Below, piece by piece: positions 32,090 through 49,755 of a stretch of 64,000 nucleotides of DNA. The notes below the pieces were generated by a model. The model did no database searches and was not told the origin of the DNA. It saw only the letters and a program-made list of their open reading frames with translations. Origin of the DNA: Pelagovum sp. HNIBRBA483 (GTDB taxonomy: Bacteria > Pseudomonadota > Alphaproteobacteria > Rhodobacterales > Rhodobacteraceae); contig NZ_CP162412.1 of the NCBI RefSeq assembly GCF_040931995.1, positions 1,178,001 to 1,242,000 of the forward strand, in the 5' to 3' direction. Position numbers and translations under genes: made by a program. The first letter of the stretch is position 1; the number at the start of each line of letters is the position of its first letter.

Positions 32090-32106
32090 ACAAAGCGACA
32101 TTGTCG

Positions 32107-32781: not shown

Positions 32782-32944
32782 CTGAACCTTCCGATCGCGA
32801 TTTTGTCTCAATGTGACGCAAGGTTCTCGTGAGGCCATGGGGCATTGGAAGCAAGGTGGCTCACATTTGGATGACCTACGGCGCATCAGGATAAGTTTCG
32901 CTGAGATAAGAGACTGGAACGCCGGATCGTGACGCTGGGATTGT

Positions 32945-32961
32945 TGGAGGCGAGTACCGGA
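32945..32961. repeat. Distal attachment-site repeat
   Basis: TGGAGGCGAGTACCGGA is an exact copy of the last 17 nt of the tRNA-Cys gene (with its CCA), in the same orientation as at 47428-47444. The 7 bases to its left match in 5 of 7 positions, after which similarity ends. It lies 164 bp after the start of the last chromosomal gene and marks the outer end of the island. Confidence 0.9.
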
Positions 32962-33894: not shown

Positions 33895-33912
33895 TTGGAG
33901 CGTGAGCGATTT

Positions 33913-34251: not shown

Positions 34252-35454
34252 CGGTACCGGTCAGACGCAGGTTCGTTGAAATTTCCCAAATCCCACATGG
34301 GAAATGGTTGCAATTATTATTACCTCGATAAGATATATTTAAGCAGTTGGGGTTGGCAGAACCGTCGTGCGTTACATGTTGCGTGGTGTCAAAACCCAGC
34401 TGCAGTCAACATGTTGATTAAGACGGCCCCGAAAATGCGTAATGTATCTGGTTTATTTGTTCCGTTTTTTCACTTACGGCTTGCTTCGCAATAAATGAAA
34501 ATCCACCAGGAAGTCCCTAGACCCCGAGACTGTTGTAGCTTTTTCGGACGTATCCGGTGTGCTTCGCACGACAACGACAACGCAATACGCAAGTCTCGCT
34601 ACTTCCTCAGTTGAGCCAATTTCCTGAGCTACAGAAGGCAGTATTTATATCAGCATCGCAAGATTCCTAAACTTCGAAGCGAGCATGGCTAACTACGATG
34701 ATGATTCAGACCTGTTCTTCCTCGATCCAACATCGCTCCCAGTTTGTGGAGATTTTCAGTTTCGAACCGTGTACAAAGGCACATTAACAATTGGTGTTGG
34801 GGACGAGGTAACTGTCAGCGCGTTCACATTCAATGGTGCGGACATCGGCTTAATTTCGGCCCTAACCTCCGACGGTAAATACACGATCGTATCCGGACTT
34901 GAGCCTTCGAACATTCCGCCCACAGGATTTGATTATGCGGGTCAGTACTTGGTGGCGGCTATCGATAATTCCCTCCAGGAAGGTGGGACTTTTGACCTTG
35001 CTCTAGATTTCGAAAATGGTTCAGGCACGCTCTCTGCAACTTCTGCTTGAACCTCTCTATCAGGGAACATTGACGTAGATGTAGCAACAGGTGAGATGTC
35101 AATCTGAACTCTAGTAATGATTGCACCGCCGTTTAGTGGTGACGCAAGCGCAACCTTCGAAGGAAATCTACATGAGGCGGCAGCGAGTAGCGTTTCCGGA
35201 CTACCCTATGATGCGGAAGGGACTTCTCCAAGCGTAACCGGCGCAATTATTGGCGCGCGGCAGGGGTTAACTGTCAGTCGAATGGTAAATCTGGGCGCCG
35301 GTAGGCTGAACCAAGTGCTTGACGTTGGTTGCCCCTATGCTCGTTCACTGAACTCTAAAAAACCGTACCGTATATGGCGAAGCCGGAAGGCGAGCCTCTG
35401 AGGTTAAACATTAGTTAAGGTCCACCTATTATTTAATAGTCTTAAGTATAAAGC
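34252..35454. other. About 1.2 kb of island DNA with only weak frames
   Basis: Apart from the weak ORFs at 34685-35050 and 35117-35401, no gene is convincing. The region is AT-rich with many stops in all frames and looks like decayed cargo. It ends next to the stop of the polymerase-like gene, where an AT-rich stretch (35402-35455) could serve as its 3' end. Confidence 0.5.
34685..35050 (+). CDS. Weak hypothetical ORF
   Basis: A 121-residue frame starting MANYDDDSDLFFLDP, low in charge and rich in Gly, Thr and Ser (GVGDEVTVSAFTFNGADIG, LALDFENGSGTL), resembling a beta-sandwich fragment of a secreted protein. It has no signal peptide or recognised domain, so it may be a broken piece of a longer gene. 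A second weak frame follows at 35117-35401. Coding status is uncertain. Confidence 0.3.
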   Translation: MANYDDDSDLFFLDPTSLPVCGDFQFRTVYKGTLTIGVGDEVTVSAFTFNGADIGLISALTSDGKYTIVSGLEPSNIPPTGFDYAGQYLVAAIDNSLQEGGTFDLALDFENGSGTLSATSA

Positions 35455-36945
35455 TTAAGAGAGATACTCTCCTCTTAAATCATCACCTTTAAACAAATCA
35501 TCAGTAGGTATCTCTTCAGCAACTTCACATTTAAGAGGGACGAGGACGTTTAAACCGCTCATGTTGTAGCAGTATTCCCTGATGGTTTCGCGATAGACCT
35601 TTGCGGCTTCTTTCGCGTCGGCGAGCTTTACCATCAGGCAGTCATGAACCGGGTAAGCAGGGATGCCTTGCTCATGGAGCCTTTCAATCGCTTGCATTGT
35701 CATCTCGGATTCATGAAAGCTCAAGAAACCCGCACCATTGATGTAGCCATCCAATTGACCGTTATTGTCGTATCTTGGCTCCAGTTTATTCAAGGCCGGT
35801 ATCACGTCTTTGAGGTGAGCTTTGAATAGGTCCCACTCTTTTTTACTGACCTCCGTCGATGCGACCAAATCATCCGTCGGATTAGACTTATTTGGATCGC
35901 CAGAACCGATCATTTCCATCACGGCAGCCTTCGCAATAAGGCGAGTACGTTTGGTAGGTTCGATTTTTGCTTCGCCTGAGTCGTAAAATTCTTCGAGGTA
36001 CTGGTCCCATGCGGCTTCATCGTAGAAGGTCAGGCCGGTCAACTGTAGGTAGGGATCGTGCCAAGTTCCGTGGTCTGAAACATTCTTCATACGAATCCCA
36101 AGCAAACAACTCAGTAGCGTTGGCTGAGAGGCGCGTATGTCCAACTCGCAGATCGGTTCGCCATCGATTGTGCACTGAAGCCGCTCACCTTCTTTGTTGT
36201 TGAGCATGGTCCATGCCCCATAGAGGCGTCCGCCTGACGTGAAACTCCCATCATGGAATATGCGTGTCGCAGAGGCCGCCACAGAGCCATTAGGAAGTTC
36301 TATGGGATGATCTCGCCAATAGCTGTTAAGCCGCTCCATGCGACTCTCGGAGGCTCTCAGGGCCTCTCCATCAACTCCTCCTACTTGAGTTCGATTGAAG
36401 AAGGGTTTCGGCTTTCGATCCTTTTCCCTTGTCGCTTTTTGCTGTCGTGTTTCAGGCTTGTTGACCTTCACAAGAGGACGTCCAACGTCAATAAATTGTG
36501 CCTGATCAATTCCCGATGGGAGGTTATCCCGGACGAGTTGGTACATTGTCATCTTCGGATCACTATGCCATCGCTCGCTCTCATCTTGGAACAACCCACT
36601 ATCGCCAGACCCCTCAACCAATTGACCATTGAAGTGAGCTACAAAATCTTTGGCGACGTTTCTCCAAATGACACGGCCAATCTTTGGATACAGCGACCAA
36701 GCACCCGATCGCAGCCTAATGCCGAGGTACTGAGGGGCGCAGCTACGTCGAAATCTGGTCGCTCTTTCACTTGCCATTAGCAGTGACGACAATGCCACGC
36801 GATACTTCTCAGATTTTGGGCCAGTGAGGGGGTAACCTAAGACCCTCAAAAGGTCGTCGACCATTACCACAGCTGTTTCGTTGTAAGGTAGCCATATGGG
36901 AACTGCAGGATGTAGCCCGTACTTTTGTTCAGTTTCGTCTGACAT
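35455..36945 (-). CDS. Stand-alone protein with family-A-polymerase-like palm motifs
   Basis: A 496-residue protein starting at MSDETEQ, with an AGAGGG site just upstream. The C-terminal half carries three motifs in the order and spacing of family A DNA polymerases and single-subunit RNA polymerases. Motif A is ELDIRASQPTLL, with its Asp at about residue 269. Motif B is RLIAKAAVMEMIGSG, with R335 and K339 at the classic R-x3-K spacing. Motif C is PVHDCLMVK, with HD at 434-435. No 3'-5' exonuclease is seen; the first 220 residues are of unknown fold. GRLYGAWTML before motif A is a further conserved-looking block. It is the only polymerase-like protein of the island. DNA or RNA synthesis activity is inferred, not certain. 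Confidence 0.6.
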   Translation of the reverse strand: MSDETEQKYGLHPAVPIWLPYNETAVVMVDDLLRVLGYPLTGPKSEKYRVALSSLLMASERATRFRRSCAPQYLGIRLRSGAWSLYPKIGRVIWRNVAKDFVAHFNGQLVEGSGDSGLFQDESERWHSDPKMTMYQLVRDNLPSGIDQAQFIDVGRPLVKVNKPETRQQKATREKDRKPKPFFNRTQVGGVDGEALRASESRMERLNSYWRDHPIELPNGSVAASATRIFHDGSFTSGGRLYGAWTMLNNKEGERLQCTIDGEPICELDIRASQPTLLSCLLGIRMKNVSDHGTWHDPYLQLTGLTFYDEAAWDQYLEEFYDSGEAKIEPTKRTRLIAKAAVMEMIGSGDPNKSNPTDDLVASTEVSKKEWDLFKAHLKDVIPALNKLEPRYDNNGQLDGYINGAGFLSFHESEMTMQAIERLHEQGIPAYPVHDCLMVKLADAKEAAKVYRETIREYCYNMSGLNVLVPLKCEVAEEIPTDDLFKGDDLRGEYLS

Positions 36946-36963
36946 TTGCCCTCTGACGTTCAA

Positions 36964-36990
36964 TCTGAATGTTTCAGATCAGACTGAAAC
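36964..36990. promoter_or_regulatory. Nested inverted repeats upstream of the polymerase-like gene
   Basis: TCTGAA-TGT-TTCAGA (36964-36978) and GTTTCAG-ATCAGA-CTGAAAC (36971-36990) overlap, giving three TTCAG/CTGAA arms just upstream of the minus-strand start at 36945. This is the pattern of a repressor operator. No obvious regulator is adjacent. It could also belong to a structured 5' leader RNA. Confidence 0.45.
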
Positions 36991-37635
36991 GGAACGCCTC
37001 ATTAATCCAGCCTCCACTTTATGGTCTGGCACTAAATGGTTAGCGAGGAATACGACACGACATAATCAAGATGTAGTCTCCCAGAGGCAATTGTAACAAT
37101 ATGTGGATGTCGCAGAGCTACTTGCTACCTTGCCGCTCCATTTCTACTGGGGGGATGAGCACACAGCGAAGCTGAGAAGGGTGTGGGTGAGTAACGCAAC
37201 TTCACCATGTGCTCTATGCTGAGGCTATCAACCAATTCCCATCGTGGGGGTTCTCGGTCGCGTTGTGTTTGAGTGCATTTGGGAGCCGCTTCATACGAGA
37301 GTATGTTTCGCCTTTCAAATTGGTAACCGGTCTCGAACTTTTCAGTGTGACTTTGCAGTGTCTCAGGAGCCAACCATACAAGGTATCTTTGGGTGAATTT
37401 ACTACGTAGGGGTTTCCACGCGAACTATGTCCCGACGGACTAACTAAGGTGAGTAATCTGCCGTCATTGGTAGGTATGGTTTTGTTGTTTGGACTGCTTA
37501 GGTATTATCAATAGAGTAAGGTCTAATGGGACCTCTCATATCGACCACTATTTGGCAAAATTCCTATCATACGGGTTGATTTTATTATGAGAAAATGTGA
37601 CCCTCACAGGGTCTTAAATATGTAGGAGAATTGCT
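36991..37635. other. 645-bp gap between the polymerase-like gene and the serine recombinase
   Basis: No credible gene is seen; the frames here have no ribosome site or domain. A short perfect hairpin, GACCCT-CAC-AGGGTC, lies at 37599-37613, just before the recombinase ribosome site, and may be an operator or a recombination subsite. The remainder is a possible home for a promoter pair or a non-coding RNA, since both flanking genes point away from it. Confidence 0.5.
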
Positions 37636-38196
37636 GTGCTCATTGGATATGCTAGAACGTCTACTGTGGATCAGGACTATGGCCTGGAAGCCCAAAAGGA
37701 TGAACTGCAAGCCTACGGAATTGGGGAATTATATCATGAAAAGGTGAGCGCGGTGGACAGCAACAGGGCGGAACTGAAGTCTGCTATCAAATCCCTCCGC
37801 AAAGGTGACAAGCTGGTCGTAACCAAGTTGGATCGACTTGCTCGTAGCGTGAGGCACTTGGGGGAGCTTTTAGAGTCTCTAGAAGCAAAGGGTGCTGGTC
37901 TTGTCGTTCTGTCGATGGGTGGTCAGCAGGTCGACACCACTACAGCAACAGGCAAACTCATTCTCACCATGCTCGGGTCTGTAGCTGAGTTCGAACGCAA
38001 CCTAATGAAGGAACGCCAGAAGGCAGGCATAGAGAAGGCCAAGGCACAAGGTAAGTACAAGGGTCGCATCCCTACAGCCAAGCGACAGGCCGACAAGGTT
38101 CTAGCACTCAAGGAAGCTGGAGTCTCTCGTCAACAGATCATGGAGCAGCTTGGTATCTCACAGGCTTCCTATTATCGGATTGTAGCTTCAACTTGA
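37636..38196 (+). CDS. Serine recombinase (resolvase/invertase family)
   Basis: A 186-residue site-specific recombinase starting at GTG (37636), with AGGAG 7 bp upstream. Ser9 in GYARTST is the nucleophile; KLDRLARSVRHL and TATGKLILTMLGSVAEFERNLMKERQ are family motifs, and the C-terminal helix-turn-helix is KEAGVSRQQIMEQLGISQASYYRIV. It is typical of Tn3-type resolvases and Pin-type invertases. No transposase of Tn3 type is nearby, so it may resolve island multimers, invert a segment, or be left from another element. Confidence 0.92.
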   Translation: MLIGYARTSTVDQDYGLEAQKDELQAYGIGELYHEKVSAVDSNRAELKSAIKSLRKGDKLVVTKLDRLARSVRHLGELLESLEAKGAGLVVLSMGGQQVDTTTATGKLILTMLGSVAEFERNLMKERQKAGIEKAKAQGKYKGRIPTAKRQADKVLALKEAGVSRQQIMEQLGISQASYYRIVAST

Positions 38197-38344
38197 TCAA
38201 CGGTTGTAATGACGTCGTGACACTTCAGTGGGTATCACAAGTAGCTTCTAAGAGGGTTCTACTAAGGCGGGGCAGGTTCGGCAGTAGGTACTTGGGTCCC
38301 TCCAGATTTCAAGCAATGAACCAGAGGCACCGCTGTTTGGGCGG

Positions 38345-38479
38345 CTATATTCGGAACTCAGATTTTGGTTTCAGCACTTGCCCGAAGGCGTCTAAGCGCG
38401 GCATCCCTTGGCCGCAAAGCACCTTAACCTGCCGTAATTTCGTGACAATCTCTTCAGGCTTATGTCGTTTGATACCCAT
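38345..38479 (-). pseudogene. IS3-family transposase OrfA remnant
   Basis: Reading the minus strand from ATG 38479 gives RHKPEEIVTKLRQV followed by LCGQGMPRLDA, the N-terminus of the OrfA protein of IS3-family elements. After about 30 residues the frame leaves the family sequence and stops at 38345-38347. Only the first third of orfA survives, with no orfB. The stretch to about 38527 (GGACCACTTCATG) probably contains the old IS end. It lies between the recombinase and the defence-like operon and is a scar of an earlier insertion. Confidence 0.7.
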
Positions 38480-38612
38480 ATCTGATCCTCCGTTTCCTAA
38501 ATATACGGGCGGACCACTTCATGGGGGGAGGATCAAGTGCCTTTCAAAAACGTCGTATTGAAAAAAGAAAAACTTGCCGAACGATGAAATTGGCCAGTTC
38601 TTTGTGGCGCGA

Positions 38613-39467
38613 CTAACTGAAGGAAAACATCTGCTCAAAGGCTATGAACGGCACTTGCGCGGTCTCCCAGCTACCGCTCCGTCTGTTTTCAGGTACATGA
38701 GGTCTCATGTCTTCAACACCGATAACGGCAAGCTTCGGTTGGTGTGAAGCAGTGTTCCAAAGGTGAAATGAATAGCGTTCTGATTTGTCGGCTGTTTCCC
38801 ACTCATTTCGTGTGAGGTACAAGGTCGCTTCTCTCAGTGGTCTTTCGGAGCACTTGCACTCGACTTTCATCGGTGCGGTGTCGCTAGCAGACGCCATTGA
38901 AAGGAGATCGTAACCAAATTCATCGCTATCCAATGCGACCCATCTAGGCTTCTTTCCAGTTCGCTTCGTCTCATATACTATGCTTAGTCTCTCGCCTGTT
39001 CTGCCAACTTCAGTCCGGTTCCTGTCTTTGTCGCCGCGAACGCGATCCGCTATTTCATCCCAGAAGCGGACTACCTCGTCGTGCTCGCCCTCAGCCAATT
39101 CTGCTTCATGTAGCAACTGCGCTATTTCAGGTGGAGCCTGAAGTAGAACGTGAATTCGACCGCGGCGTGCCAATTGTAGCCAGGGATCTTGTCTCAAGAG
39201 GAAATAGTCTGTAAGCAGGAAGCGCAGCTGTTCAGTTGCATGGTTTAGCTCAAGACATTCTTGTCCACGGTGGGCGATCGAGACCCTCCCGTCGGAACCT
39301 TCTGTGATCCAGCCGAGTGCACTTACGTTCTCCATGACACTATGAGCGCTTGTAGAAGAAAAACGTAGGCTCTTGAGTTCGGATACAAACATGTTTTGTT
39401 CGCAAACTTCCGCGAGAAAATCGATGCATGCATAAGCTGTGCTAGGGGTAAGTAGTGCAGGCCTCAT
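38613..39467 (-). CDS. DUF3883-type protein with nuclease-like DxExK residues
   Basis: A 284-residue protein, last gene of a four-gene operon; its ATG overlaps the stop of the helicase gene by 4 bp (ATGA). The N-terminal 140 residues are helical and resemble a winged-helix segment. The C-terminal part (about 155-284) matches the DUF3883 layout: DEFGYDLLSM with D187, then MKVECKCSERP with E203 and K205, then LYLTRNEWETADKSERYSFHLW. The D...ExK pattern is that of PD-(D/E)xK nucleases. DUF3883 domains occur in many defence operons as likely nucleases or DNA-binding modules. Confidence 0.7.
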   Translation of the reverse strand: MRPALLTPSTAYACIDFLAEVCEQNMFVSELKSLRFSSTSAHSVMENVSALGWITEGSDGRVSIAHRGQECLELNHATEQLRFLLTDYFLLRQDPWLQLARRGRIHVLLQAPPEIAQLLHEAELAEGEHDEVVRFWDEIADRVRGDKDRNRTEVGRTGERLSIVYETKRTGKKPRWVALDSDEFGYDLLSMASASDTAPMKVECKCSERPLREATLYLTRNEWETADKSERYSFHLWNTASHQPKLAVIGVEDMRPHVPENRRSGSWETAQVPFIAFEQMFSFS

Positions 39468-41269
39468 TTGGGGCTAAGGGCCTCCACAAGTGCCTCCACA
39501 TCTCCTTTGTCCAGGCCCGCACTGTCCACTTCCTGCTCCATCTCTTCTGTTTCCCAAACAGGTGAGATGTTCAGTGAGTGATCGCGCAGGACTTGAGCCA
39601 TTGCAGATACCTTGCTCTCGAGGCGAAGCCTAACTGTCTCATCAATTGTTCCTTGGCACTCAACAACTTCGAGAGTGGTCGCAATATCAGGCGGCAGACC
39701 AAGTCTGTGAATTCGGTCTTCAGATTGTAGATATTGGGCCGCATTGAAATTTCGATCGAGATAGATTGCGTGATGGCAAACGCGATGAAGGCTTATCCCT
39801 TCGCTTGCGGCGGCTGGATTTGCGATCATGACTTGCGCGTGAGCGTCATCATGAAACTTCTTGATCTTGCCCTCTCTCGTATCCTCATCTTCGTCGCTCC
39901 CGGCGTCAACACCGCCGTGAATGTACACAGCCCCAAGATCTCGAAGGCATTCTGAGAGGTATTCCACGTTCTTAACAAAAGAAGACCAAATCAGAACTTT
40001 GTGGCCTTGCTTGGTGAGCTCTCTCGTCCGACCGATTACATACCTGATCTTTGGGCCTTCACCCTCGCTCAAAGCATTAGTCAGCTCTGAGGCGTAACGA
40101 AACTCTGGTTTGTCCGCGAGCAGCGCAGGATTGGACACAAACTGCAGTACTGTTGCGACGGAACGCCCAAACCTGCGCAGTGCGCCCTTAGTGCTATCGG
40201 TTAATGCTCGTTCAGCCTCACGAGCCAACTCACTTTTTAAGAGCGAGTATAGCTTCTCCTGGTGTGGATCCATCGGAAGGGGTTTCACCTTCCTCAAAGG
40301 GGGGCGTAATCCTAGTTCATCTTTTGAGGTTCTAACGTAAACCCGCTGAATGCGATCTACTACATTCTCGGCTGAAGCGCTTACTTCGGGGAAAAGAAAT
40401 CTGAATTGTGGAACTAGGTCTTCAGTTGACTGTGGCATTGGCGTGCCGCTTAGTATCAGTTTTCCTTTCGGCAAATGCGACATGGTCAATATCGCTTGGG
40501 ATTGCTGACTGTCGATATTTTTGATCCGATGGCTTTCGTCCAGAAAAACAAACGGTTGGGTCCTACTAATGTGCTCGGCGACCCGGTCTCGCACTCTCAC
40601 TAGCTGCTGATACCCTATTAACATGAGCTTCGGGTTGTCCGAGAGTTGCCGGGGGATTTGATCGGTTTTCCGGAGCCTTTCAAACTTTCCTGAGCTATCG
40701 GGAAAACACTGGGCGTATTGCTCGTCCCAAGCAGCAAATGCGTTTTTTGGTGCAACAACAAGGAGGCCAGTACCCTCCTCTGCGGTAAGTGCGTAAAAGG
40801 CCAGTGCTTCCGTTGTCTTACCAGCGCCAGGCACTGAAAAAGTCGCTCCACTAGACCTCGCTATGAGCTTGGTAACATTCCTAGCCTGTTCTGTGGTTAA
40901 TTCTCGCTGGAAGCCTACCGCTTCCAATCGTTCCTTAAGCTCTCTCTCGCTTAAGTTCTGTGCGGTTTCAGACAGGAAACTCTCTTGCATCCTGCGAGAC
41001 TCGTTGAGGCGAGCAACAGCTTGTTCGGAGATCCCAAAGTCATCTCCAGCCTTCAAACCGAAAGCTGAAATTACGCTTAGCACTTCTCCTCGAACGGCAA
41101 GAAATGTCCACCACGGCAAGGTAAGCGCGTTCGAACTGTTTAGCTCGGCTGAATCGGAGGCCTCCAAACAGATCGAAATAATCAGCTTTTGCCATTTCTG
41201 CTGGGCATCTTCTTCGGACCAGCGAAGCAGCGCGAGCCCTTGTTTCTCAACATAGTCGAACGAGAGCAA
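39464..41269 (-). CDS. SNF2-family DNA helicase/translocase
   Basis: A 601-residue superfamily 2 ATPase starting at TTG (41269), 1 bp after the ParB-like stop. Walker A PGAGKTTEAL with K151, Walker B FLDESHRIKN, motif III LSGTPMPQS, then a second RecA domain with VLIWSSFVKNVEYL, ANPAAASEGISLHRVCHHAIYLDR and the arginine-finger motif YLQSEDRIHRLG. The N-terminal 120 residues are a helical accessory region of no known family. Such enzymes move along DNA and often load or drive a nuclease. The two flanking genes suggest it is the motor of a multi-subunit complex. Confidence 0.88.
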   Translation of the reverse strand: MLSFDYVEKQGLALLRWSEEDAQQKWQKLIISICLEASDSAELNSSNALTLPWWTFLAVRGEVLSVISAFGLKAGDDFGISEQAVARLNESRRMQESFLSETAQNLSERELKERLEAVGFQRELTTEQARNVTKLIARSSGATFSVPGAGKTTEALAFYALTAEEGTGLLVVAPKNAFAAWDEQYAQCFPDSSGKFERLRKTDQIPRQLSDNPKLMLIGYQQLVRVRDRVAEHISRTQPFVFLDESHRIKNIDSQQSQAILTMSHLPKGKLILSGTPMPQSTEDLVPQFRFLFPEVSASAENVVDRIQRVYVRTSKDELGLRPPLRKVKPLPMDPHQEKLYSLLKSELAREAERALTDSTKGALRRFGRSVATVLQFVSNPALLADKPEFRYASELTNALSEGEGPKIRYVIGRTRELTKQGHKVLIWSSFVKNVEYLSECLRDLGAVYIHGGVDAGSDEDEDTREGKIKKFHDDAHAQVMIANPAAASEGISLHRVCHHAIYLDRNFNAAQYLQSEDRIHRLGLPPDIATTLEVVECQGTIDETVRLRLESKVSAMAQVLRDHSLNISPVWETEEMEQEVDSAGLDKGDVEALVEALSPK

Positions 41270-41270
41270 T

Positions 41271-42599
41271 TCAGTTCTTCCGCTGCGCTATGAATTCGCG
41301 AATGCGTAAAATCGAAGCCTCCATGGCCTCCAACTGTTTCTCAGCGCCCTCAATCTCGGCTTCGGGGGTAAGGCCTAGATTCAAGGCGTCGTTCAGTGCA
41401 GTGCGAGACTTATGCAGCTGTTTGATGAAGTACTTTGCCTTTGCTTCTTCGCCGACTTTCTCTTTTTCGGACTTCAGTGTCTCCACGATCACATCTTGCG
41501 CCTTACTTATTGTCGCAGGAGAGGCGAAGATGCTAGCCACTAGCTCCATATCGGTAACCTCAGTCGAGTTCGTTTCGCCACCACCAAAGGCGAGCAGCGC
41601 TTGATCGTCCGGGTATTTGGTATCTTCGTCTGAGAACACCAATCGTAGCTCATCCTTTACCGAGCCAAGGTGTTTCCCTAGCTTTGGAATGAAGGTGTAC
41701 AGGCGTTCTTCAGCAGCGTCGGGATCATCTATGTAGTGAAAGGCCAACTCCTTCAGAACTTCACGATCCGCCAAGCTCTTCTGTTCCTTCATCGTCTTAT
41801 TGAGGCGTTTGAACGTGTGCTCGGTCTCGTTCAAAAGCGACCACATGTTCTTTTTCCCGCGAGCCGAAAGATACTCTGCCCCCAACTCTCTTATTTCAAA
41901 GAGCTCATCGATATCCTTCTTCTTCTTCCTGTATTGTCGCGAGAGCTCGGTGGTTGAGTAGCCAAACCTTCTCTGCTTCTCCTTGAACATCTTAGCTTCA
42001 GCGTGCCATGTATAGTCGCTTCGAATGTCTTTCTCGATCTGAAGGCGCGACTCAATGGCATCAAGTTCTTTATCCTCGCATTTCGGTAGGACAACGACGT
42101 CAACATGGCTGAAGTGCGAGTATTTTTCTTCATTCGAATAATACAACTCGCGCCAGCTACATAGACGGCGGTTGCCATTAATCACAAATCCACTCTCATC
42201 AAGCAGGATTGGTTCAACTTGCTTATTCGTAGGGTCGCGGAATTTCTCGGACAGCCCTTCTTCACCAATCATTTCGCTAAGGATTTGGTGCTGAGCCTCC
42301 TGAAGAATATACAATTCCGGGTCACCATCAGTGAAGAAATTCTCGTCTTTTCCGTTGACTACAACCCATTCCTCTTGAATCGACGATGTCCTCCCATTCG
42401 CAATTCTGTATTTGGGTAAGCCAATTTCCACCCGGAGAATGGGCAGACTTATTGTTTGTCCTTTAAAGTTCTCAATTCTGTGAGAGTCTCGGCCCTTTTC
42501 TTTGGCTTCTTTGGTGAGATCAGAGAACGACTGCCGCCTAGCTGGAAGTGGCCAACCAAATTTCTTCTCTGCCAGAGGTGATCTCTCTATTTCATTCAT
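41271..42599 (-). CDS. ParB/Srx-fold (ParB N-terminal domain-like) protein
   Basis: A 442-residue protein. Near residues 125-150, PILLDESGFVINGNRRLCSWRELY matches the GNRR box of the ParB/sulfiredoxin fold, used by CTPase or nuclease-type proteins. A helical DNA-binding-like section follows (FKEKQRRFGYSTTELSRQYRKKKKDIDELFEI). The C-terminal half is charged and helical (KAQDVIVETLKSEKEKVGEEAKAKYF). It is not a partition ParB, since no ParA is present. A role in DNA recognition or nucleotide-dependent clamping in this operon is inference. Confidence 0.75.
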   Translation of the reverse strand: MNEIERSPLAEKKFGWPLPARRQSFSDLTKEAKEKGRDSHRIENFKGQTISLPILRVEIGLPKYRIANGRTSSIQEEWVVVNGKDENFFTDGDPELYILQEAQHQILSEMIGEEGLSEKFRDPTNKQVEPILLDESGFVINGNRRLCSWRELYYSNEEKYSHFSHVDVVVLPKCEDKELDAIESRLQIEKDIRSDYTWHAEAKMFKEKQRRFGYSTTELSRQYRKKKKDIDELFEIRELGAEYLSARGKKNMWSLLNETEHTFKRLNKTMKEQKSLADREVLKELAFHYIDDPDAAEERLYTFIPKLGKHLGSVKDELRLVFSDEDTKYPDDQALLAFGGGETNSTEVTDMELVASIFASPATISKAQDVIVETLKSEKEKVGEEAKAKYFIKQLHKSRTALNDALNLGLTPEAEIEGAEKQLEAMEASILRIREFIAQRKN

Positions 42600-42608
42600 T
42601 ATTCGGCC

Positions 42609-43067
42609 TCACTGAAAGGAAACAATGACTAGTGGCATGTGGATGACCTTGCGAAAAATTACCAACTCTCCCTCGAGCCGGTCTGAATTGGCGAGATTGT
42701 CGCCCAAAATTCGGGCTGCAACCGCCGTTGGCAAGATGAGCACGCCCACATCAATTAGGCCGTCCAAGTACATCTGCTGGAGCTTTATGAGATCAGCGTA
42801 CATTCTTGACATGTTGCCTGCAGTCTGGATGCCGAGTCCCACACGGTTTTTTTGCGAAGCAATCGTGATCTTGGACCCGTGCGCCACCTGAACCTTATCG
42901 GTCCATCCCTGATCTTTTAGCCTATCTAAGACCTCATTTCGGAGTTCGGTGCCAGAACCTCTCTCTATTGGGGTCTTACAGTGCTTTATGGCATTAAGAA
43001 TTTCTTCCCGCTCCACAGAGGGTAGGGCCTCACTGCCCACGAGATGAGAGTATTGATGCGTTTCCAT
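42609..43067 (-). CDS. Restriction-endonuclease-like protein (BglII/BamHI-like fold), active site unclear
   Basis: A 152-residue protein, first gene of the four-gene operon, 9 bp before the ParB-like gene. ELRNEVLDRLKDQGW, then VGLGIQTAGNMSRMYADLIKLQQMYLDG, then IDVGVLILPT and ELVIFRKVIHMPLVIVSF resemble the core of BglII-type endonucleases, which continue with a helix and two beta strands. The usual catalytic D...ExQ is not present: the E position appears as Gly in GLGIQ and the D position as Ala. It may use other residues, may only bind DNA, or may have been misassigned. No other catalytic motif is seen. Confidence 0.5.
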   Translation of the reverse strand: METHQYSHLVGSEALPSVEREEILNAIKHCKTPIERGSGTELRNEVLDRLKDQGWTDKVQVAHGSKITIASQKNRVGLGIQTAGNMSRMYADLIKLQQMYLDGLIDVGVLILPTAVAARILGDNLANSDRLEGELVIFRKVIHMPLVIVSFQ

Positions 43068-43284
43068 CGACGTAAGTTGCTCTCTTCACTGATGTCTGTC
43101 CGAGAATACACGCCGCTGAGTGAAACGCCATCCCCGGATTGTCAGCCAACCAGGCCCACTACCCAACTTAGATTGGAGGTGGCGGCACATTGGTGTTGAG
43201 CAACTAGGACTAACCTTCGGTCAAGCAGTGAGTTCTCTTGTCTTGCGTTCGAAGTTGCCAAAAGCGGCCATCCTGATAGCGTGC

Positions 43285-43671
43285 ATGCCAATAATCCATT
43301 TAGGAAGTCCAGTTGTGAAGCGCGCTGAGAACAGTGGTGTACGGCTTAGTTCGGCAGATGCCGCGATTGTGAAAGGGATGCTGATCAGAGGTGATCGACA
43401 GCATGACATCGCCTCTTGGTTCGGAGTGAATGGTGGGCGAATTGGAGAAATCAGTAAGGGCCACAAGTTCTTCGACGTTCCTCCTCAAACACATGGACTG
43501 CCGCGGCCGGGACCTTACATGTCTGGAAAGGCATCGGATTCCTTAGTTGGCGAGTGTCGGCGTCTTAGAAGCAAGGTACGTAAGCTACTTTCCGATTGCT
43601 CTTTGGGGCCTGAGGCAAAGTCCATCGCAACCAGCATGATGGAGCAACTGGACGGGATCATTGATGATTGA
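43285..43671 (+). CDS. Small HTH-like protein
   Basis: About 128 residues. The core SADAAIVKGMLIRGDRQHDIASWFGVNGGRIGEISKG looks like a helix-turn-helix with an unusual recognition loop and recurs in alphaproteobacterial accessory DNA. The start is placed at ATG 43285; a GTG at 43120 gives a 183-residue form that has no better ribosome site. It is divergent from the four-gene operon (about 217 bp gap) and 158 bp upstream of the DNA methyltransferase on the same strand. It could be a controller protein for both. Confidence 0.55.
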   Translation: MPIIHLGSPVVKRAENSGVRLSSADAAIVKGMLIRGDRQHDIASWFGVNGGRIGEISKGHKFFDVPPQTHGLPRPGPYMSGKASDSLVGECRRLRSKVRKLLSDCSLGPEAKSIATSMMEQLDGIIDD

Positions 43672-43829
43672 ACGGCGCTTGGCAATTGTCGCACACCGCC
43701 TCATCAAACGCACATTCAACCGCGCCTCGGAGAGTAGAAGTGGTGTACATCTTGTGCGCTCAGTTGTAACTACTGGATCTTCTTGTGGTAGCGTGCTAAA
43801 AATTGGAAAACGTAGGAGTGAGGGGCCGA

Positions 43830-45437
43830 GTGCGGGTTATTGATTTATACGCAGGTGTGGGCGGTTGGTCGGTAGGCCTAAAGCTCGCAGGCTTCGATGT
43901 CGTCAGATCGTATGAATGGTGGCAAGCAGCTGCGAATACCCATCGGTCCAACTGTGGTTCAACGGTTGAGGTAATTGATATAAGAACCCTGGACACGAGC
44001 ACCTTACCCAGCGACATTGATCTCGTAGTCGGCAGCCCACCCTGCACACAGTTCTCGTATTCCAACCGCGGCGGGTCCGGTGATGTTGAGGACGGATTGC
44101 TAGACATCGCAAAGTTTTTGAGCGTGGTTAGGGCCTGCAAACCTAAAGCCTGGGCCTTTGAAAATGTACCCCGTGTTAAGTCGGTGCTTGAGAAAGAGAT
44201 ACAGCCTGGCGGTTCGTTGAGTAGTTTTGCTGATCTGTTTGATGACGCCAAAGTTGAGATATTTGATTTCGCAGATTTTGGTCTTCCTCAACGCCGAAGG
44301 CGCTGCATTGCAGGAAACTTCGATTTCAATCTCCTTAAGTCATATTCTCGGAATTCGAGCCATCCAACCCTAGGGGACGTGGTTTATAAGCTAAGCATTG
44401 GCCGTGAGCCCATCTTCAAGGATTCACTCAAAGATGAGGTGACCGATAATGACCCAGAAGAGCCGCTAAATTGGGAGGAGCATCGCTTCAACAGAGACAT
44501 GAAGGTCGCACATCCAGTCTACAACGGCATGCCCTTCCCAGACCCGCTGGATCGATCGAGCAGAACGGTGACCGCGACATGCACCAGAGTTTCTCGCGAG
44601 AGCCTAATCATCAAAGATGATAACGTCGGAGGGTACCGCAGGCTGTCAGTGCGAGAAAGAGCTTCACTACAAAGTTTCCCAATCAGCTTTCAGTTTCTTG
44701 GCTCAAGTCACTCTCAAAAATTGAAAATGATTGGAAACGCTATTCCGCCCCTATTTACCTACATGGTAGGGGAAGCGGTAAAAGGTACGTCCAAAGATAA
44801 GCTGGTTCCAGTAGATGAGCTTGACGCTAATTCTTTGGTATCTGCCACTGACAGCATTACCACCAAACCCGACAATTCTGGGAGAACGTATCCGGAGAAT
44901 AGGCGGTTTAGGTTCAGTATACCCAATCTACGCTTCAAGAGTGGAACACGCTTTGAGCTTGCCAACATTGACGGACCAACGAGTTGGGCTGTGTGTTTTT
45001 ACTTTGGAGACTCAAAGAGAATACAAAAGCGTCAATTCACGCTGAACGATGTTGAATCCTCCGTCCGTGGCTGCTCTTCGGATTTGCGCGAGCTACTCAA
45101 GTCGACCATGGATGATTTCAGAAAATGTGACTTCTGGGGTGAACTAGCGGGTCTTCAGGAGACATGGAGCCACCGTTCTAATGGTCTCCATCCTTTCAAT
45201 TTGATCGATGCATTTGGCGAATTTGCCGAACGACATGCACAGAATGACGCGTGGATTTCGCTAGATGAATATGACGTAAAGAGATACGTAACATCAATTG
45301 TTTACTCGAATGATACCATCCGAGGATTGGCAATCCAGAAAATTGAGAACTATGCAAAAATGATAGCCATTGGTTCAGTGGTAGCCGCTCACGCCAACCA
45401 AGAGTTCTCGAAAGTTTTTCAATCTGTTGCCGCCTAG
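43830..45437 (+). CDS. C5-cytosine DNA methyltransferase with C-terminal extension
   Basis: A 535-residue protein. Motif I is DLYAGVGGWSVGLKLAGF, motif IV GSPPCTQFS with the catalytic Cys, motif VI AFENVPRV, motif VIII LPQRRRRCIAG, and motifs IX-X SVRERASLQSFP and IGNAIPP. These occupy about the first 320 residues. The last 215 residues have no recognised family and could be a target-recognition or partner-binding domain. The GTG at 43830 has an AGGGG site; a TTG at 43803 gives 9 more residues. It faces the four-gene operon and is the only methyltransferase of the island, so it may protect host DNA from that system. Confidence 0.88.
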   Translation: MRVIDLYAGVGGWSVGLKLAGFDVVRSYEWWQAAANTHRSNCGSTVEVIDIRTLDTSTLPSDIDLVVGSPPCTQFSYSNRGGSGDVEDGLLDIAKFLSVVRACKPKAWAFENVPRVKSVLEKEIQPGGSLSSFADLFDDAKVEIFDFADFGLPQRRRRCIAGNFDFNLLKSYSRNSSHPTLGDVVYKLSIGREPIFKDSLKDEVTDNDPEEPLNWEEHRFNRDMKVAHPVYNGMPFPDPLDRSSRTVTATCTRVSRESLIIKDDNVGGYRRLSVRERASLQSFPISFQFLGSSHSQKLKMIGNAIPPLFTYMVGEAVKGTSKDKLVPVDELDANSLVSATDSITTKPDNSGRTYPENRRFRFSIPNLRFKSGTRFELANIDGPTSWAVCFYFGDSKRIQKRQFTLNDVESSVRGCSSDLRELLKSTMDDFRKCDFWGELAGLQETWSHRSNGLHPFNLIDAFGEFAERHAQNDAWISLDEYDVKRYVTSIVYSNDTIRGLAIQKIENYAKMIAIGSVVAAHANQEFSKVFQSVAA

Positions 45438-45797
45438 GTATTGATCTCTATTTGCTACATTGGCGTCTTCTTCTAAGTCATCGGCGAACTGTTGAGCGCT
45501 CGCTTCAATAAGTCGGTACCCGGCTTTTCATGGTTTTGGTTCGTCATCGTTGGTTGCGTTTGAGCTGACAGGCACACAGACCTACGACCGATCAGTGGCA
45601 TATTGCACTATCCATGGGAGAGACTTGGGCGAGCTGCTTTTTGCCAACACACAGCGTCAGGTTTGGGAACGGTACGATGTATGGGAGCGGTATTGAGGGG
45701 GGTAAGGTCGTCGTGTCGATCGCTGCTCGGAGCTGTACCTTCTCAGAGCCTAGACAGAATCAAACAGATAGCTGCCTGGAGCGGAAGGAGGCTACCA
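45438..45797. other. 360-bp gap between methyltransferase and integrase, no gene seen
   Basis: The methyltransferase (plus strand) and integrase (minus strand) converge here. Frames in this region lack ribosome sites and domains. No clear bidirectional terminator was found. Confidence 0.5.
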
Positions 45798-47339
45798 TCA
45801 GGCGCGCCCTTGGAGCCAAGGATGCTGCACACGATTAACGATACTATACTTGATGGTCACGTCTATATCTTGGAGGTATGTCCTCGTCCTCTCAGACTGC
45901 CGGACATTGCCCTCCATATCGTGTCCAGTGATCCAGTCCATGTGCGCGCCTGACGGGACTGGGTCTGTTAGGTTAGCCATTAGGCCGGTCAGATTATGTC
46001 GTAACGAATGAGCGACTTTCCGGTCATCATTCTCGTTGTCCCTAACTGCATGAAAATAAGGACTGACTGCCCTGCTTGCTGATTTCGATGATTTCCCGTC
46101 GTTCTCAATTTTAAAGCTGAAGATGCGGCCGGTGCTGGGTTCGGGTAACTCAAGGCAATCGGGTATCGCTACTGTTCTTGCAGAGAATTTATCATTTTTT
46201 ACCACTGCTCCAGTCGACAGGTCAAAATATCTCAACCCATTTCTATCAATCTTGTACTGCGACCAAGTTAGTAGGGCCGCCTCATCAAGTCTCATGCCTG
46301 TGGTGATTAAGATGGACAACAGCAACCAGTGCTCATCTGGCATATCTAGAGAGAATAATCTGTGCAATTGTTCGGTGCTCAACGCCTCATAGCTGCGTTT
46401 GGCAATACCGTAGCCTTTGGCGCTAATACCCACAAATGGGTTAGCGGTTAAAAATGGTTTGGGCATCTGCGCATTAGAATCGACTAAGTCGGTTATTGCC
46501 CAATTCAGCATTGTGGACAGGTGTCGTTTGTAGGTCTTGATCGTGCTATTCGCCAACCCCTCATCCGATAATGTTTCCATGATGATTTTGGCATCGCGCG
46601 CCAAGATTTGGTCTAGCGGTTTGTCACCGATGATTTCTGCACATGTAGTGATGTAGCTTGATGCATATTGGTGTTCTTTTCTCGATAAACCTGCCCAGCG
46701 CCTATCTTTCAAGTAAGCAGGAAGGACCTCAAGGATTGTTGGGCATCCGGTAAGATTGACTCGCTGCTCAGCTTCAGATCCAACTTTGCTGCGCGGCTCA
46801 GGCAGGGAGTTATTTTCGGAGCCATCTATTGTTTCAAGAAATTCTTTCAACTCGGCAGCGGCTTGGTTCTGCATGGTAGTCGGGTAGGGGTTGGGTGGGG
46901 CTGTTATCCTCGATCGAAAGTCTAATGCCTCATGATAATTAAGAAAGCGGAACAGCTTGTTCGCCAAGCTCAAGTTCCAACCATCTGGTGCCATGCAAAC
47001 GATCTGACACGCTAATACTCGACCGTCGTCCCACTTTTGGATGAAGGCCTGCGGTTCAAGCCCTCCGGCCTTTTCTGGCTTCCAGTTCGTCTGGAGGAGT
47101 TCCAAGAATGGGTCTCGTTCTAATAATTTATCCCATTCATCATAAATTTCGCGTTCGATACTGCGCCAAACGCGCTCTGCCTGTTTTCGGTCCCTTGATC
47201 TTGTCGATTTGCGTACAGTTCGGTTGCCGCCAGTAACTTTAAACACGTCAGCAGGCTTGGTTACTTGAACGTAGTAGTATCCACCCTTCGAGGTGATTTT
47301 TACTAGCCGAGTTACAGGATACCTGCTTATGGAAGTCAT
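45798..47339 (-). CDS. Tyrosine-type integrase of the island
   Basis: A 513-residue phage-type integrase starting at MTSISRYPVTR; the frame runs further upstream through the attachment site but that part is not convincing. N-terminal SAM-like core-binding domain near residues 200-310, then the catalytic residues: Arg in ITTGMRLDEAALLTW, His-x2-Arg in AHSLRHNLTG, His in ITGHDM, and Tyr in TRTYLQD. Its position 87 bp from the tRNA-Cys 3' end is the standard arrangement for tRNA-directed islands. It acts at the 17-bp core shared by both ends. Confidence 0.92.
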   Translation of the reverse strand: MTSISRYPVTRLVKITSKGGYYYVQVTKPADVFKVTGGNRTVRKSTRSRDRKQAERVWRSIEREIYDEWDKLLERDPFLELLQTNWKPEKAGGLEPQAFIQKWDDGRVLACQIVCMAPDGWNLSLANKLFRFLNYHEALDFRSRITAPPNPYPTTMQNQAAAELKEFLETIDGSENNSLPEPRSKVGSEAEQRVNLTGCPTILEVLPAYLKDRRWAGLSRKEHQYASSYITTCAEIIGDKPLDQILARDAKIIMETLSDEGLANSTIKTYKRHLSTMLNWAITDLVDSNAQMPKPFLTANPFVGISAKGYGIAKRSYEALSTEQLHRLFSLDMPDEHWLLLSILITTGMRLDEAALLTWSQYKIDRNGLRYFDLSTGAVVKNDKFSARTVAIPDCLELPEPSTGRIFSFKIENDGKSSKSASRAVSPYFHAVRDNENDDRKVAHSLRHNLTGLMANLTDPVPSGAHMDWITGHDMEGNVRQSERTRTYLQDIDVTIKYSIVNRVQHPWLQGRA

Positions 47340-47343
47340 GACT

Positions 47344-47378
47344 TTGTTCCCAATTTTCTTCCCAGCATTGTTCCCAAT
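47344..47378. repeat. Direct repeat TTGTTCCCAAT, candidate integrase or excisionase arm sites
   Basis: TTGTTCCCAAT occurs at 47344-47354 and again at 47368-47378, 24 bp apart (just over two helical turns), with a partial copy (TTCTTCCCA) in between. It lies between the integrase start and the attachment core. Such iterated short sites near attL are typical arm-type or excisionase binding sites. It could also control the integrase promoter. Confidence 0.6.
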
Positions 47379-47427
47379 GGGGTCGTTTGGGTCAATGATA
47401 TATAGAAAAAAGGAGTGTTTGGTTTGC

Positions 47428-47444
47428 TGGAGGCGAGTACCGGA
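47428..47444. repeat. Attachment-site repeat inside tRNA-Cys
   Basis: TGGAGGCGAGTACCGGA is the 3' end of tRNA-Cys (CCA, discriminator base, acceptor 3' strand and part of the T arm) on the complementary strand. The identical sequence is at 32945-32961. Recombination between the two would remove the 14.5-kb island and leave the tRNA complete. Confidence 0.9.
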
Positions 47445-47501
47445 ATCGAACCGGTGTACACGGATTTGCAATCCGCTGCGTCACCACTCCGCCAACTCGC
47501 C
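47428..47501 (-). tRNA. tRNA-Cys (GCA)
   Basis: Read on the minus strand, the 74-nt gene starts GGCGAGT at 47501 and ends ACTCGCC-T-CCA at 47428, a perfect 7-bp acceptor stem with an encoded CCA. The anticodon loop TTGCAAA reads GCA for Cys, and the T-loop GGTTCGATTCC is canonical. The gene is intact, because the island insertion rebuilt its 3' end. Confidence 0.95.
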
Positions 47502-47667
47502 TCGCTTGCGTCATTAGAGGTGACAGCGATCGGCTACACCAACAAAATGGGCGGTGCAAGGCGGATTTTATGGATGCGTTGCGAGAGATCTCTGGTTTGA
47601 TCATTGCCCTGATCCGCCTGTTGTGGCAAAGGCTTGTCAACATTCAGTTCAGCGAAGAGGCGGACAG

Positions 47668-48321
47668 TTGGCAAATTACGATGCTCGCAGAACCATGATG
47701 GTCGATACGCAGATCAGACCGTCGGACGTGACCAAGTTTCCGATCATTGATGCGATGCTTTCCGTCCCACGGGAAAAGTTTGTTCCAGACGAACTGAAAG
47801 AGGCAGCCTACATTGGCGAACATGTTTCGTTAGGCAATGGCCGTGTTCTGTTGGAACCACGCACTTTTGCAAAAATGCTGGATTTTGTTGATGTGCAACC
47901 GGATGAGAACATTCTCGATATCGGTTGCGGGCTGGGATACTCGACGGCTGTGCTTGCGTCTCTCGCGAAATTCGTGGTCGCCGTCGAAGATGACGAGCAA
48001 CGTGCGGACGAGGCTCAGAGCCTACTGTCGGAATTGAATTTGGACCAAGCCGTTGTCGTTTCGGGCGCTCTTGTCGAGGGTGCGGCAAAGTCCGGCCCTT
48101 ATGATGTTGTCTTCATTGAAGGGGCTGTTGAAGTCCTGCCAGAGGGTATCACCGCTCAAATCAAGGATAATGGCCGTGTGATTGCAATTTTCGCAGAGGG
48201 TGAGCTGGGCGTCGTACGGGTCGGTTACAAGCGCGATGGTCGGCTTCACTGGCGGTTCGCGTTCAATGCAACCGCACCCATATTGCCCGGCTTTGAGAAG
48301 AAACCAGAATTTTCCCTTTGA
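47668..48321 (+). CDS. Protein-L-isoaspartate O-methyltransferase family protein
   Basis: A 217-residue SAM-dependent methyltransferase. The start is put at TTG 47668 with an AGAGG site, giving the familiar N-terminus ANYDARRTMMVDTQIRPSDVT; the longer frame overlaps the region next to tRNA-Cys. Motif I is ENILDIGCGLGYSTAVLA. Family residues PREKFVPDE and LLEPRTFAKML are present. It lies 60 bp upstream of the TolC-type gene, a conserved pairing in Rhodobacterales. True isoaspartate repair is likely, but not certain for this subfamily. Confidence 0.82.
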   Translation: MANYDARRTMMVDTQIRPSDVTKFPIIDAMLSVPREKFVPDELKEAAYIGEHVSLGNGRVLLEPRTFAKMLDFVDVQPDENILDIGCGLGYSTAVLASLAKFVVAVEDDEQRADEAQSLLSELNLDQAVVVSGALVEGAAKSGPYDVVFIEGAVEVLPEGITAQIKDNGRVIAIFAEGELGVVRVGYKRDGRLHWRFAFNATAPILPGFEKKPEFSL

Positions 48322-48381
48322 ATTTGAACCGAACAGTCTAGTTTGGCGATGACGAGGGGCCTGAAGGGACTGGAACTGCAT

Positions 48382-49755
48382 ATGAGAATAGCACGAAGCC
48401 TTTTCGCGTCGTTGTTGATTGCATCGTCTGTCTTTGGATCCTCGGCGAGTGCTGACACCCTTTCAGGCGCGCTATCGCGTGCTTACGAGAATAGCGGGTT
48501 ACTAGAACAGAACCGTGCTACGTTGCGGGCTGCTGACGAAAATGTCGCGCAAGCGGTGTCGCGTCTCAGGCCAGTCCTGTCTTGGTCCGCATCGGCGCTG
48601 AATAATAATCTCACCGGTGCTAATCCGCTGGCCGATTTCGACAGTAATTTCTCGACGTCCTTGTCGCTCAACCTGAACTGGCTTCTATATGATTTTGGCG
48701 CGAGTGACTTGGCGGTTGAAGCGCAGAAGCAAACTGTCCTTGCGACGCGCGAGGCATTGGTTTCAGTCGAACAGCAAGTTCTCCAACGTGCTGTTGCCGC
48801 TTATCTCTCGGTGTTGCGCGACCAACAATTCGTTTCGCTGAGAGAGAGTAATGTTCGGCTGATTGCTGAGGAACTGCGTGCTGCTGAAGAGCGGTTTAAC
48901 CTCGGTGAGACAACGAGGACTTCTGTAGCACTTGCTGAGGCACGGCTTGCCTCTGCGCGCAGTCTCCTCGCCGTCGCGCGGGGTAACCTGGTGCGTGCCG
49001 AGCAGGAATATCAGGTCGCCGTCGGGGCGATGCCGCGTAATTTGGCGCAAGCGCCTGCGTCACCGGTTTCTCTGAGTGTAGATGCTGCAAAAGCGTATGC
49101 TGTGCGCCATCACCCCCAGATCAAGCAACTCCAGTATAGCGTATCTGCGAGTGAATTGGCGCTGGAACGCGCATCGCTTGCCATGAGGCCGCAAGTTCAG
49201 CTGAACTCCGGTATCACATTGCGGGACGACGGAACCGAGAGCTCCAATATTTCGGTGACAGTCGGCGGTCCCCTTTACAATGGCGGCGCGATGCAGAGCC
49301 AAATGAGGCAAGCTCGCCATCAGTTGGACAGCGCCCGCGCTGGCCTACATATTGCGGTGCAAAATATCGAACAGAATGTTGTCGTCGCCTATGCGAATTA
49401 CGATGTAGCAGGTGCGGCGCGAGACGCGTATGAACAGCAGGTTGCTGCGGCGGAAGTGGTTTTTGAGGGAACCCGCGAGGAAGCTAGCCTTGGAGCACGG
49501 ACGATGCTCGATGTACTCACTGCGGAGCAAGACCTGCTTGATGCCCGCGCCAACCTTGTCTCGGCACAGATCGATGAAATCCTTGCGAGCTACTCCATTC
49601 TGGCGGCTCTAGGGAGCTTAACCGTTGATCATCTGGATTTATCGGTGCAACGCTTCGATCCTGAAGCCTATTACGAACTTGTCAAATCTGCGCCAATTGC
49701 CTCCTCTGCTCGCGGGCAAGCGCTAGATAGGGTGCTTTCTGCAATCGGAGATTGA
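48382..49755 (+). CDS. tolC: TolC-family outer-membrane efflux protein
   Basis: A 457-residue outer-membrane channel protein starting at MRIARSLFASLL (signal peptide to SASA). It has two OEP repeats of long helices (ALSRAYENSGLLEQNRATLRAADENV, AEERFNLGETTRTSVALAEARLASARSLL, and the second-half AYEQQVAAAEVVFEGTREEASLGARTMLDVLTAEQDLL). The size is typical. The product serves as outer-membrane exit for type I secretion and efflux pumps. Partner inner-membrane genes are not in the window. Confidence 0.88.
   Translation: MRIARSLFASLLIASSVFGSSASADTLSGALSRAYENSGLLEQNRATLRAADENVAQAVSRLRPVLSWSASALNNNLTGANPLADFDSNFSTSLSLNLNWLLYDFGASDLAVEAQKQTVLATREALVSVEQQVLQRAVAAYLSVLRDQQFVSLRESNVRLIAEELRAAEERFNLGETTRTSVALAEARLASARSLLAVARGNLVRAEQEYQVAVGAMPRNLAQAPASPVSLSVDAAKAYAVRHHPQIKQLQYSVSASELALERASLAMRPQVQLNSGITLRDDGTESSNISVTVGGPLYNGGAMQSQMRQARHQLDSARAGLHIAVQNIEQNVVVAYANYDVAGAARDAYEQQVAAAEVVFEGTREEASLGARTMLDVLTAEQDLLDARANLVSAQIDEILASYSILAALGSLTVDHLDLSVQRFDPEAYYELVKSAPIASSARGQALDRVLSAIGD

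Follow-up and report, generated by a model that had tools for sequence, protein, structure and literature searches.

Which protein cuts the DNA in a restriction-like operon whose nuclease-fold member appears to have lost its active site? This question is raised by a cassette of six genes in Pelagovum sp. HNIBRBA483, which we analysed within a stretch of 64,000 nucleotides of contig NZ_CP162412.1 (positions 1,178,001 to 1,242,000; hereafter the window, with coordinates counted from its first letter). Four core genes, encoding a BglII-like protein, a ParB-like protein, an SNF2-family ATPase and a NOV_C (DUF3883) protein, form an operon that runs on the minus strand from 43067 to 38613, with successive spacings in the open reading frame list of 9 bp, 1 bp and a 4-bp overlap, and genes for a C5 cytosine methyltransferase and a helix-turn-helix (HTH)-like protein were both found on the plus strand (Table 1). 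This reproduces the layout given in a preliminary description made from the sequence alone, namely four near-gapless genes with the other two divergent. The same description took the set for an undescribed restriction-like defence system, of which one part stands, since the set is coherent, multi-subunit and ATPase-bearing, and another does not, since the supposed nuclease subunit is apparently dead and the HTH-like gene lies outside the core. Judged from its genes, the cassette likely restricts DNA; the reading that we favour, with moderate confidence, is a mobile restriction-modification system that depends on ATP and assigns recognition and cutting to different proteins. Computation directly shows the gene order, the fold, the missing catalytic residues, SNF2 and NOV_C signatures that are intact, a core inherited together and a methyltransferase that is exchanged.

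Table 1. Features of the cassette and of the element that carries it (window coordinates)
Feature	Position	Strand	Evidence and proposed role
BglII-like protein gene	42609-43067	minus	PF09195 Endonuc-BglII 1.5e-7, over cut-off; first gene of the operon, proposed DNA-recognition subunit
ParB-like protein gene	41271-42599	minus	ParB nucleotide-binding fold, GNRR motif, helix-turn-helix, long helical C-terminus
SNF2-family ATPase gene	39464-41269	minus	PF00176 8e-16, PF00271 5e-9; proposed translocase
NOV_C/DUF3883 protein gene	38613-39467	minus	PF13020 1.2e-6, over cut-off; proposed nuclease subunit
HTH-like protein gene	43120-43671	plus	weak KorA/TrfB match (KORA E 0.011, below cut-off); proposed regulator
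C5 cytosine methyltransferase gene, 544 aa	43803-45437	plus	PF00145 1e-43; proposed self-protection
Transferred unit	38559-45436		84.6% identity over 6892 bp with the Nioella sediminis locus L011
Tyrosine integrase of the carrier element	45798-47471	minus	phrog_1 8e-27
tRNA-Cys(gca), integration target	47428-47501	minus	ARAGORN
Probable far attachment site, repeating the 3′ end of tRNA-Cys	32938-32961		partner 47421-47444; 22/24 bases identical, 17 exact

A BglII fold without catalytic acids

The AlphaFold model of the BglII-like protein (predicted local distance difference test, pLDDT, 96.7) overlays on BstYI with a Z score of 21.5, at 1.8 Å across 150 of 152 residues, and on BglII and BamHI with Z scores of 21.3 and 18.9. 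By fold the protein thus belongs to the BglII/BamHI group, but it lacks the catalytic Asp and the ExE/ExQ acids expected of an active enzyme of this group. None of the 67 cassette copies, window included, has an acid at position 70 or 79. In a profile alignment against the PDB, the Glu of the ExE/ExQ motif of BamHI, OkrAI and BstYI is replaced in the family by Cys, Gln, Gly, Ala, Ser or His; where OkrAI has its Asp, the family has Thr, Phe, Ser, Ala, Asn or Pro. In place of the Lys of the PD..D/ExK motif, BamHI has E and BglII has Q, according to passages of PMC4081073; at this position the cassette proteins invariably have Q. The same strand and helix are otherwise fixed, with Q81, G84, D92 and K95 present in 67/67 copies and N85 and R88 in 66/67, which argues that the protein is under selection rather than decaying. 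The endonuclease-like label of the preliminary description therefore stands for fold and family match and fails at the nuclease active site. In a highly divergent copy from SAR86 (L076, 7999-8436), N85 and R88 are gone as well.

A less biased sample of 398 genomes from the window's phylum, taken to be Pseudomonadota because the nearest relative is Nioella, served as a control. PF09195 gave 10 matches there, two of them in cassettes (the window's genome and G175) and eight in stand-alone genes. All eight stand-alone proteins have both acids (D, then E in six or D in two, and E), and profiles for ParB, SNF2 and NOV_C found no match in the 9-18 kb around these genes (on one side only for L128). 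The sole genome with a PF02923 (BamHI) match, L131, reads EWETGN at the motif, and core genes are absent nearby there too. Acids missing from 67 cassette copies and kept in eight stand-alone relatives mean that catalytic loss goes with the cassette. We accordingly rejected the BglII-like protein as an active nuclease, and its residues predict that it is catalytically dead; its probable role is that of a recognition subunit. Stand-alone relatives with known structure cut RGATCY-type sites, so by analogy a reasonable first guess at the target would be a palindrome with GATC in it.

The core is inherited as one unit

Gene content was scored with six profile models in 80 loci, the closest of at least 547 SNF2 relatives in the genome collection, so that completeness figures are conditional on SNF2 similarity. 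The ParB-like gene lies directly upstream of SNF2 in 78/80 loci (both misses are contig ends) and NOV_C downstream of it in 79/80 (the single miss is a contig end), and the BglII-like gene precedes the ParB-like gene in 66/80, seven of the 14 loci without it being truncated by contig ends. Genes are at most 60 bp apart in 56/56, 63/69 and 74/77 of the pairs called intact neighbours, mostly touching or overlapping. The loci span 11 named phyla, with one locus unplaced. Pairwise distances among the four core proteins correlate with Mantel r 0.83-0.93, and those of the BglII-like protein with ParB, SNF2 and NOV_C at 0.83-0.87 (67 BglII-like, 75 ParB, 76 SNF2, 80 NOV_C and 61 amino-methyltransferase rows, short or cut copies having been dropped; earlier alignments held 59 BglII-like, 79 ParB, 84 SNF2 and 81 NOV_C rows). 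On the SNF2 tree, presence and absence of the BglII-like gene require as few as four changes. The core is one inherited unit.

In the 398 genomes, the BglII-like profile matched three times. Two matches are strong and each lies inside a cassette; the third is weak (6.7e-4), with no core gene across the surrounding 17 kb. The ParB-like profile matched seven times. Four of these matches are strong (E<1e-60), three with SNF2, two of these also with the BglII-like gene, and one alone; the three weak ones lie in frames of about 730 aa. The gene set is thus rare, sporadic and coherent. Routine separation of the genes, which would have spoken against the preliminary description, was not seen in the examined loci, the 398 genomes holding a single partnerless ParB-like gene. 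Two loci deserve separate mention: in L057 (Planctomycetota) SNF2 and NOV_C are each broken into two frames, perhaps through decay of the cassette or sequencing errors, and L028, in a Rickettsia endosymbiont assembly, has a complete core and an amino-methyltransferase match in two pieces.

Motor, candidate nuclease and ParB-like protein

The motor motifs are intact, as the preliminary description had held: the SNF2 protein keeps FSVPGAGKT in 84/84 rows and K151, D244, E245, R519 and R522 in 76/76. The D..ExK motif that it had noticed in the DUF3883 protein is equally firm, the NOV_C signature E..E..D..ExK (E159, E166, D187, E203 and K205) being kept in 80/80 rows, window row included. By this D..ExK signature the protein is a candidate PD-(D/E)XK nuclease. 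With the BglII-like subunit dead, the NOV_C protein becomes the likely cutter, a role that its signature residues predict.

The second gene had been called ParB-like, and although the window copy has no Pfam family over cut-off, its predicted model (pLDDT 91.9) folds as a ParB, matching KorB with a Z score of 9.8 and Caulobacter ParB (7bm8) at 1.8 Å across 91 residues. A Foldseek search with the model gave no match at 0.001 or better, the best, at 1.4e-3, being a ParB. The fold of the N-domain and the motif are those of the ParB nucleotide clamp: G142, N143 and R145 occur in 75/75 rows, and GNRR aligns with GERR of the host's own ParB. Structure comparison also matches an HTH-like domain of the protein to those of KorB and Noc. 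We tentatively suggest that the protein is a clamp switched by nucleotide and links recognition with the motor.

The ParB-SNF2 pair also occurs in other settings. Eight Bacillota plasmid loci have SNF2 adjoining a GNRR-bearing gene of the window's ParB family (in L009 this gene is matched solely by a profile built with L009 included). Four of these, L009, L010, L106 and L108, carry Mod-Res-ParB-SNF2 as adjoining genes, so that ParB-SNF2 extends a type III system; in L008 and L109 the pair lies near genes for Sau3AI-type enzymes and C5 methyltransferases, and in L105 and L107 it has other neighbours. The SNF2 proteins of L008, L105 and L109 are about 850-880 aa long, with a PLD-like domain fused at the N-terminus. 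Four alphaproteobacterial plasmids (L003-L006) carry ParB-SNF2-DUF3883, interrupted by an insertion sequence (IS) element in L005, with a protein of about 280-320 aa upstream in place of the BglII-like gene; the BglII-like profile matches none of the four, and the three compared with Pfam have no match there. In L110 (Bradyrhizobium) a weaker SNF2 match has no ParB-like match alongside.

Methyltransferases are exchanged between cassettes

As in restriction-modification systems in the broad sense, a DNA methyltransferase generally shares the locus. One lies nearby in 72/80 loci, of the amino type only in 60, C5 only in 10 and both in two. Of the eight loci with none, six are cut by contig ends, and L059 and L072 are uncut, so that a methyltransferase, about whose constant presence the preliminary description had asked, is usual and not universal. 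The amino-type gene mostly lies just upstream of the core (47 upstream genes have the TSPPY motif), and all four enzymes checked match PF01555 and PADLOC MTase_II. The C5 enzyme of the window is 90% identical to that of Nioella L011 and 45-48% to those of nine further cassettes; its family is placed upstream, divergent or convergent relative to the core, and L066 has a C5 enzyme unlike this family.

Distances of the amino-methyltransferase follow those of the core at Mantel r 0.23-0.35, the highest value being with the BglII-like protein. Methyltransferase class switched at least four times on the SNF2 tree, a quick tree with long branches in which one of the four changes hangs on long-branch L066; six unlabelled rows and L030 (both classes) were omitted from this count, and L081 (both) was taken as amino type. 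The methyltransferase is exchangeable between cassettes. Weak co-evolution together with class switches is what would be expected of a dead enzyme whose target stays the same, any enzyme that marks this target being sufficient.

Proposed mechanism and alternatives

In the mechanism that we propose, the methyltransferase would mark the host's own sites, and the BglII-fold protein, presumably as a dimer, would bind an unmarked site without cutting it, since the loss of both catalytic acids rules cleavage out. Binding would load or activate clamp (ParB-like) and motor (SNF2). The motor would travel along or remodel the invading DNA, which the NOV_C protein, with its PD-(D/E)XK-like signature, would cut. 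A more specific version falls slightly short of an even chance in our judgement: a killed type II enzyme would act as a stand-alone specificity subunit feeding the ParB clamp, SNF2 motor and NOV_C nuclease, and ParB-SNF2 would be a portable drive unit found also in type III and Sau3AI-type systems.

Several observations weigh against this picture. The BglII-like gene is truly absent, with ParB, SNF2 and NOV_C retained, from seven of the 80 loci (L035, L038, L042, L046, L049, L066 and L072), and L102 likewise has the other three genes without it; recognition by other means should be possible there. In L101 a ParB-like gene (8577-9755, E 4e-64) has neither SNF2 nor NOV_C within 18 kb. The nuclease assignment of NOV_C is based on a sequence signature, and its profile found no relative among PDB sequences up to E 1. 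The usual Glu of GERR is Asn in the ParB-like protein. This Glu takes part in CTP (cytidine triphosphate) hydrolysis, which may be altered here; the substitution is only a hint, because a second ParB of the same genome also deviates at this residue. The Mantel r of the amino-methyltransferase, low as it is, still exceeds all 999 permutations, so that this enzyme is not independent of the core, and mixed subfamilies may lower the value. Interchangeable methyltransferases must, moreover, all mark the same site, which is a prediction. Known defence genes, finally, are not abundant in the sampled cassette neighbourhoods.

Among the alternatives, the one that survives best, although unlikely, is a defence or DNA-maintenance system of ParB clamp and SNF2 motor that senses structure or compacts DNA by a Wadjet- or Zorya-like logic, with the methyltransferase and the dead enzyme as regulators and no sequence-specific restriction. 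The variable methyltransferase class speaks for it, as does the ParB-SNF2 pair found without the dead enzyme and with different partners; yet several of those partners are restriction systems, the methyltransferase is near the core in nine-tenths of loci, with most exceptions truncated, and the conserved residues of the dead enzyme suggest selection for DNA binding. Somewhat less likely again is that the dead BglII-like protein serves for safety or regulation, occupying host sites or repressing the operon and leaving NOV_C or ParB to find the target. Type II systems often have small regulators (controller proteins) next to the endonuclease gene, according to passages of PMC12255303, the ParB-like protein has an HTH-like domain of its own like those of KorB and Noc, and seven of the 80 loci lack the BglII-like gene despite full flanks; however, the protein retains an entire restriction-enzyme fold and evolves in step with the core, and the small number of changes on the tree implies that the gene is usually kept. 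An ordinary type II pair beside an independent ParB-SNF2-NOV_C module is improbable, for although the methyltransferase and BglII-like genes alone would pass as one, and Pfam and PADLOC labels agree, every BglII-like copy lacks both acids, the protein tracks ParB, SNF2 and NOV_C far above the amino-methyltransferase, and the eight relatives with intact acids stand in stretches without any part of the module.

If split recognition and cutting is the correct reading, restriction enzymes can be converted to pure recognition subunits coupled to a clamp-and-motor machine, and ParB biology is joined with restriction. The cassette offers a directly testable set of six genes with one predicted dead site, one live site and one motor. 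A caution also follows for annotation, where the gene-by-gene label of type II restriction endonuclease ("type II REase") can mislead as to which protein cuts.

Comparison with known systems

That the set fits no described system, as the preliminary description claimed, agrees with the PADLOC protein models and the literature searched, neither of which gave a whole-set match. We compared the proteins with PADLOC 2.0.0 at the level of protein models (best 25 matches per protein) rather than whole-system rules. Its models match only the SNF2 helicase core and the methyltransferase, apart from weak matches to the BglII-like and NOV_C proteins. For the BglII-like protein the matches are 3.6e-5 and 0.02 in the window, while two other copies give 5e-4 or nothing; no model matches the ParB-like protein (E up to 1 for the window copy, 1e-3 for three others). 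On these protein-model grounds we rejected identity with a known system. No description of the gene set was found in titles, abstract openings and passages of the open-literature papers listed, and the literature matches listed held nothing relevant for the MADS system.

Type I systems differ in having HsdR, HsdM and HsdS, as no Hsd-type Pfam family is over cut-off in nine window proteins, and SWI2_SNF2 (PF18766) is below cut-off against the SNF2 protein. Type III systems differ in Mod and Res: the operon has no Mod-type methyltransferase, and ResIII is a weaker match to the SNF2 helicase core. The likeness to type III systems with extra genes lies in the four plasmids with Mod-Res-ParB-SNF2; the window cassette has neither Mod nor Res. 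Passages of PMC8259958 describe an extra helicase-like ATPase of unknown role beside type III Mod/Res in >500 genomes; there the ATPase is encoded 5′ of mod, and the text of the paper mentions neither ParB nor SNF2. DISARM, Zorya and Dpd share an SNF2-family motor with the cassette (window SNF2 against ZorD 2.5e-21, against DpdE 2.4e-17), but the partner genes of DISARM, Zorya, Druantia and Dpd are lacking, the matches listed for the nine window proteins being to helicase-core and methyltransferase models only.

The nearest described logic, as far as the passages of the two papers cited below go, is that of the CglI/NgoAVII family, which we take to be marked by a Z1 domain. Scanned at E up to 1, the window proteins match neither PLD nor Z1 and so lack its combination of PLD with a DEAD-family/Z1 ATPase. 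In CglI/NgoAVII a nuclease protein works together with a helicase-like ATPase, translocation leading to cleavage; cleavage requires nucleotide hydrolysis, and the family is said to be no neat fit to types I, ISP or III (PMC4267653, PMC5737866). In these accounts a single R protein is the endonuclease (of the PLD superfamily in the relative BceSIV) and the ATPase is of the DEAD family. The cassette has in common with it a separate methyltransferase, a recognition/nuclease protein and a helicase-like ATPase, known here from genes alone, and differs in its dead BglII-fold protein, ParB-like clamp, SNF2 motor and NOV_C, as four separate core genes. With BamHI, BglII, BstYI and OkrAI it shares the fold across the whole recognition protein and the amino-methyltransferase, sole class in 60/72 methyltransferase-bearing loci; unlike them, it has lost the acids throughout and would need three more proteins.

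Carrier island and transfer

The cassette lies in an element of about 14.5 kb that sits at tRNA-Cys. The tRNA-borne island of the preliminary description is borne out by this tRNA, an adjoining integrase whose true start is probably downstream of the listed TTG start, which overlaps the tRNA, a repeat of the 3′ end of the tRNA that is probably the far attachment site, and a guanine-plus-cytosine (GC) content of 0.48-0.51 across 32-48 kb against 0.53-0.59 in the rest of the window (exceptions outside the island are 0.50-0.52 at 16-18 and 20-24 kb). The Nioella locus L011 (16,756 bp) has no further nucleotide match to 32001-48500 beyond the transferred unit, so the cassette alone is common to both. 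Outside the window's own genome, the HTH-like gene was found among sampled loci only in this Nioella copy (tblastn, 1e-6), and we rejected it as a core member. We also considered a KorA-KorB link between the HTH-like and ParB-like proteins; the KorA match remains below cut-off.

Among 50,697 phage records the BglII-like protein had no match at E 0.01 and SNF2 two at 1e-20; there is no sign of phages as the home of the cassette. The setting in defence islands has weak support. In a random draw of 110 from the 227 neighbour proteins with ≤700 aa (249 neighbours in all), 18 PADLOC models matched at 1e-15, each by a single protein, among them AbiEi, AbiEii, PDC-S36, PD-T4-1, TmtA, AriAB, KwaB, WYL and mad2, and Pfam-level matches comprised three integrases and two resolvases. 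Within the island of the window, a 502-aa protein (35455-36963) has no Pfam match and resembles phrog_4756 (6e-17), the function of which is unknown. A serine resolvase/invertase gene (37636-38196) adjoins the cassette, and a 41% identical one is also found 3′ of the Kozakia cassette (L003).

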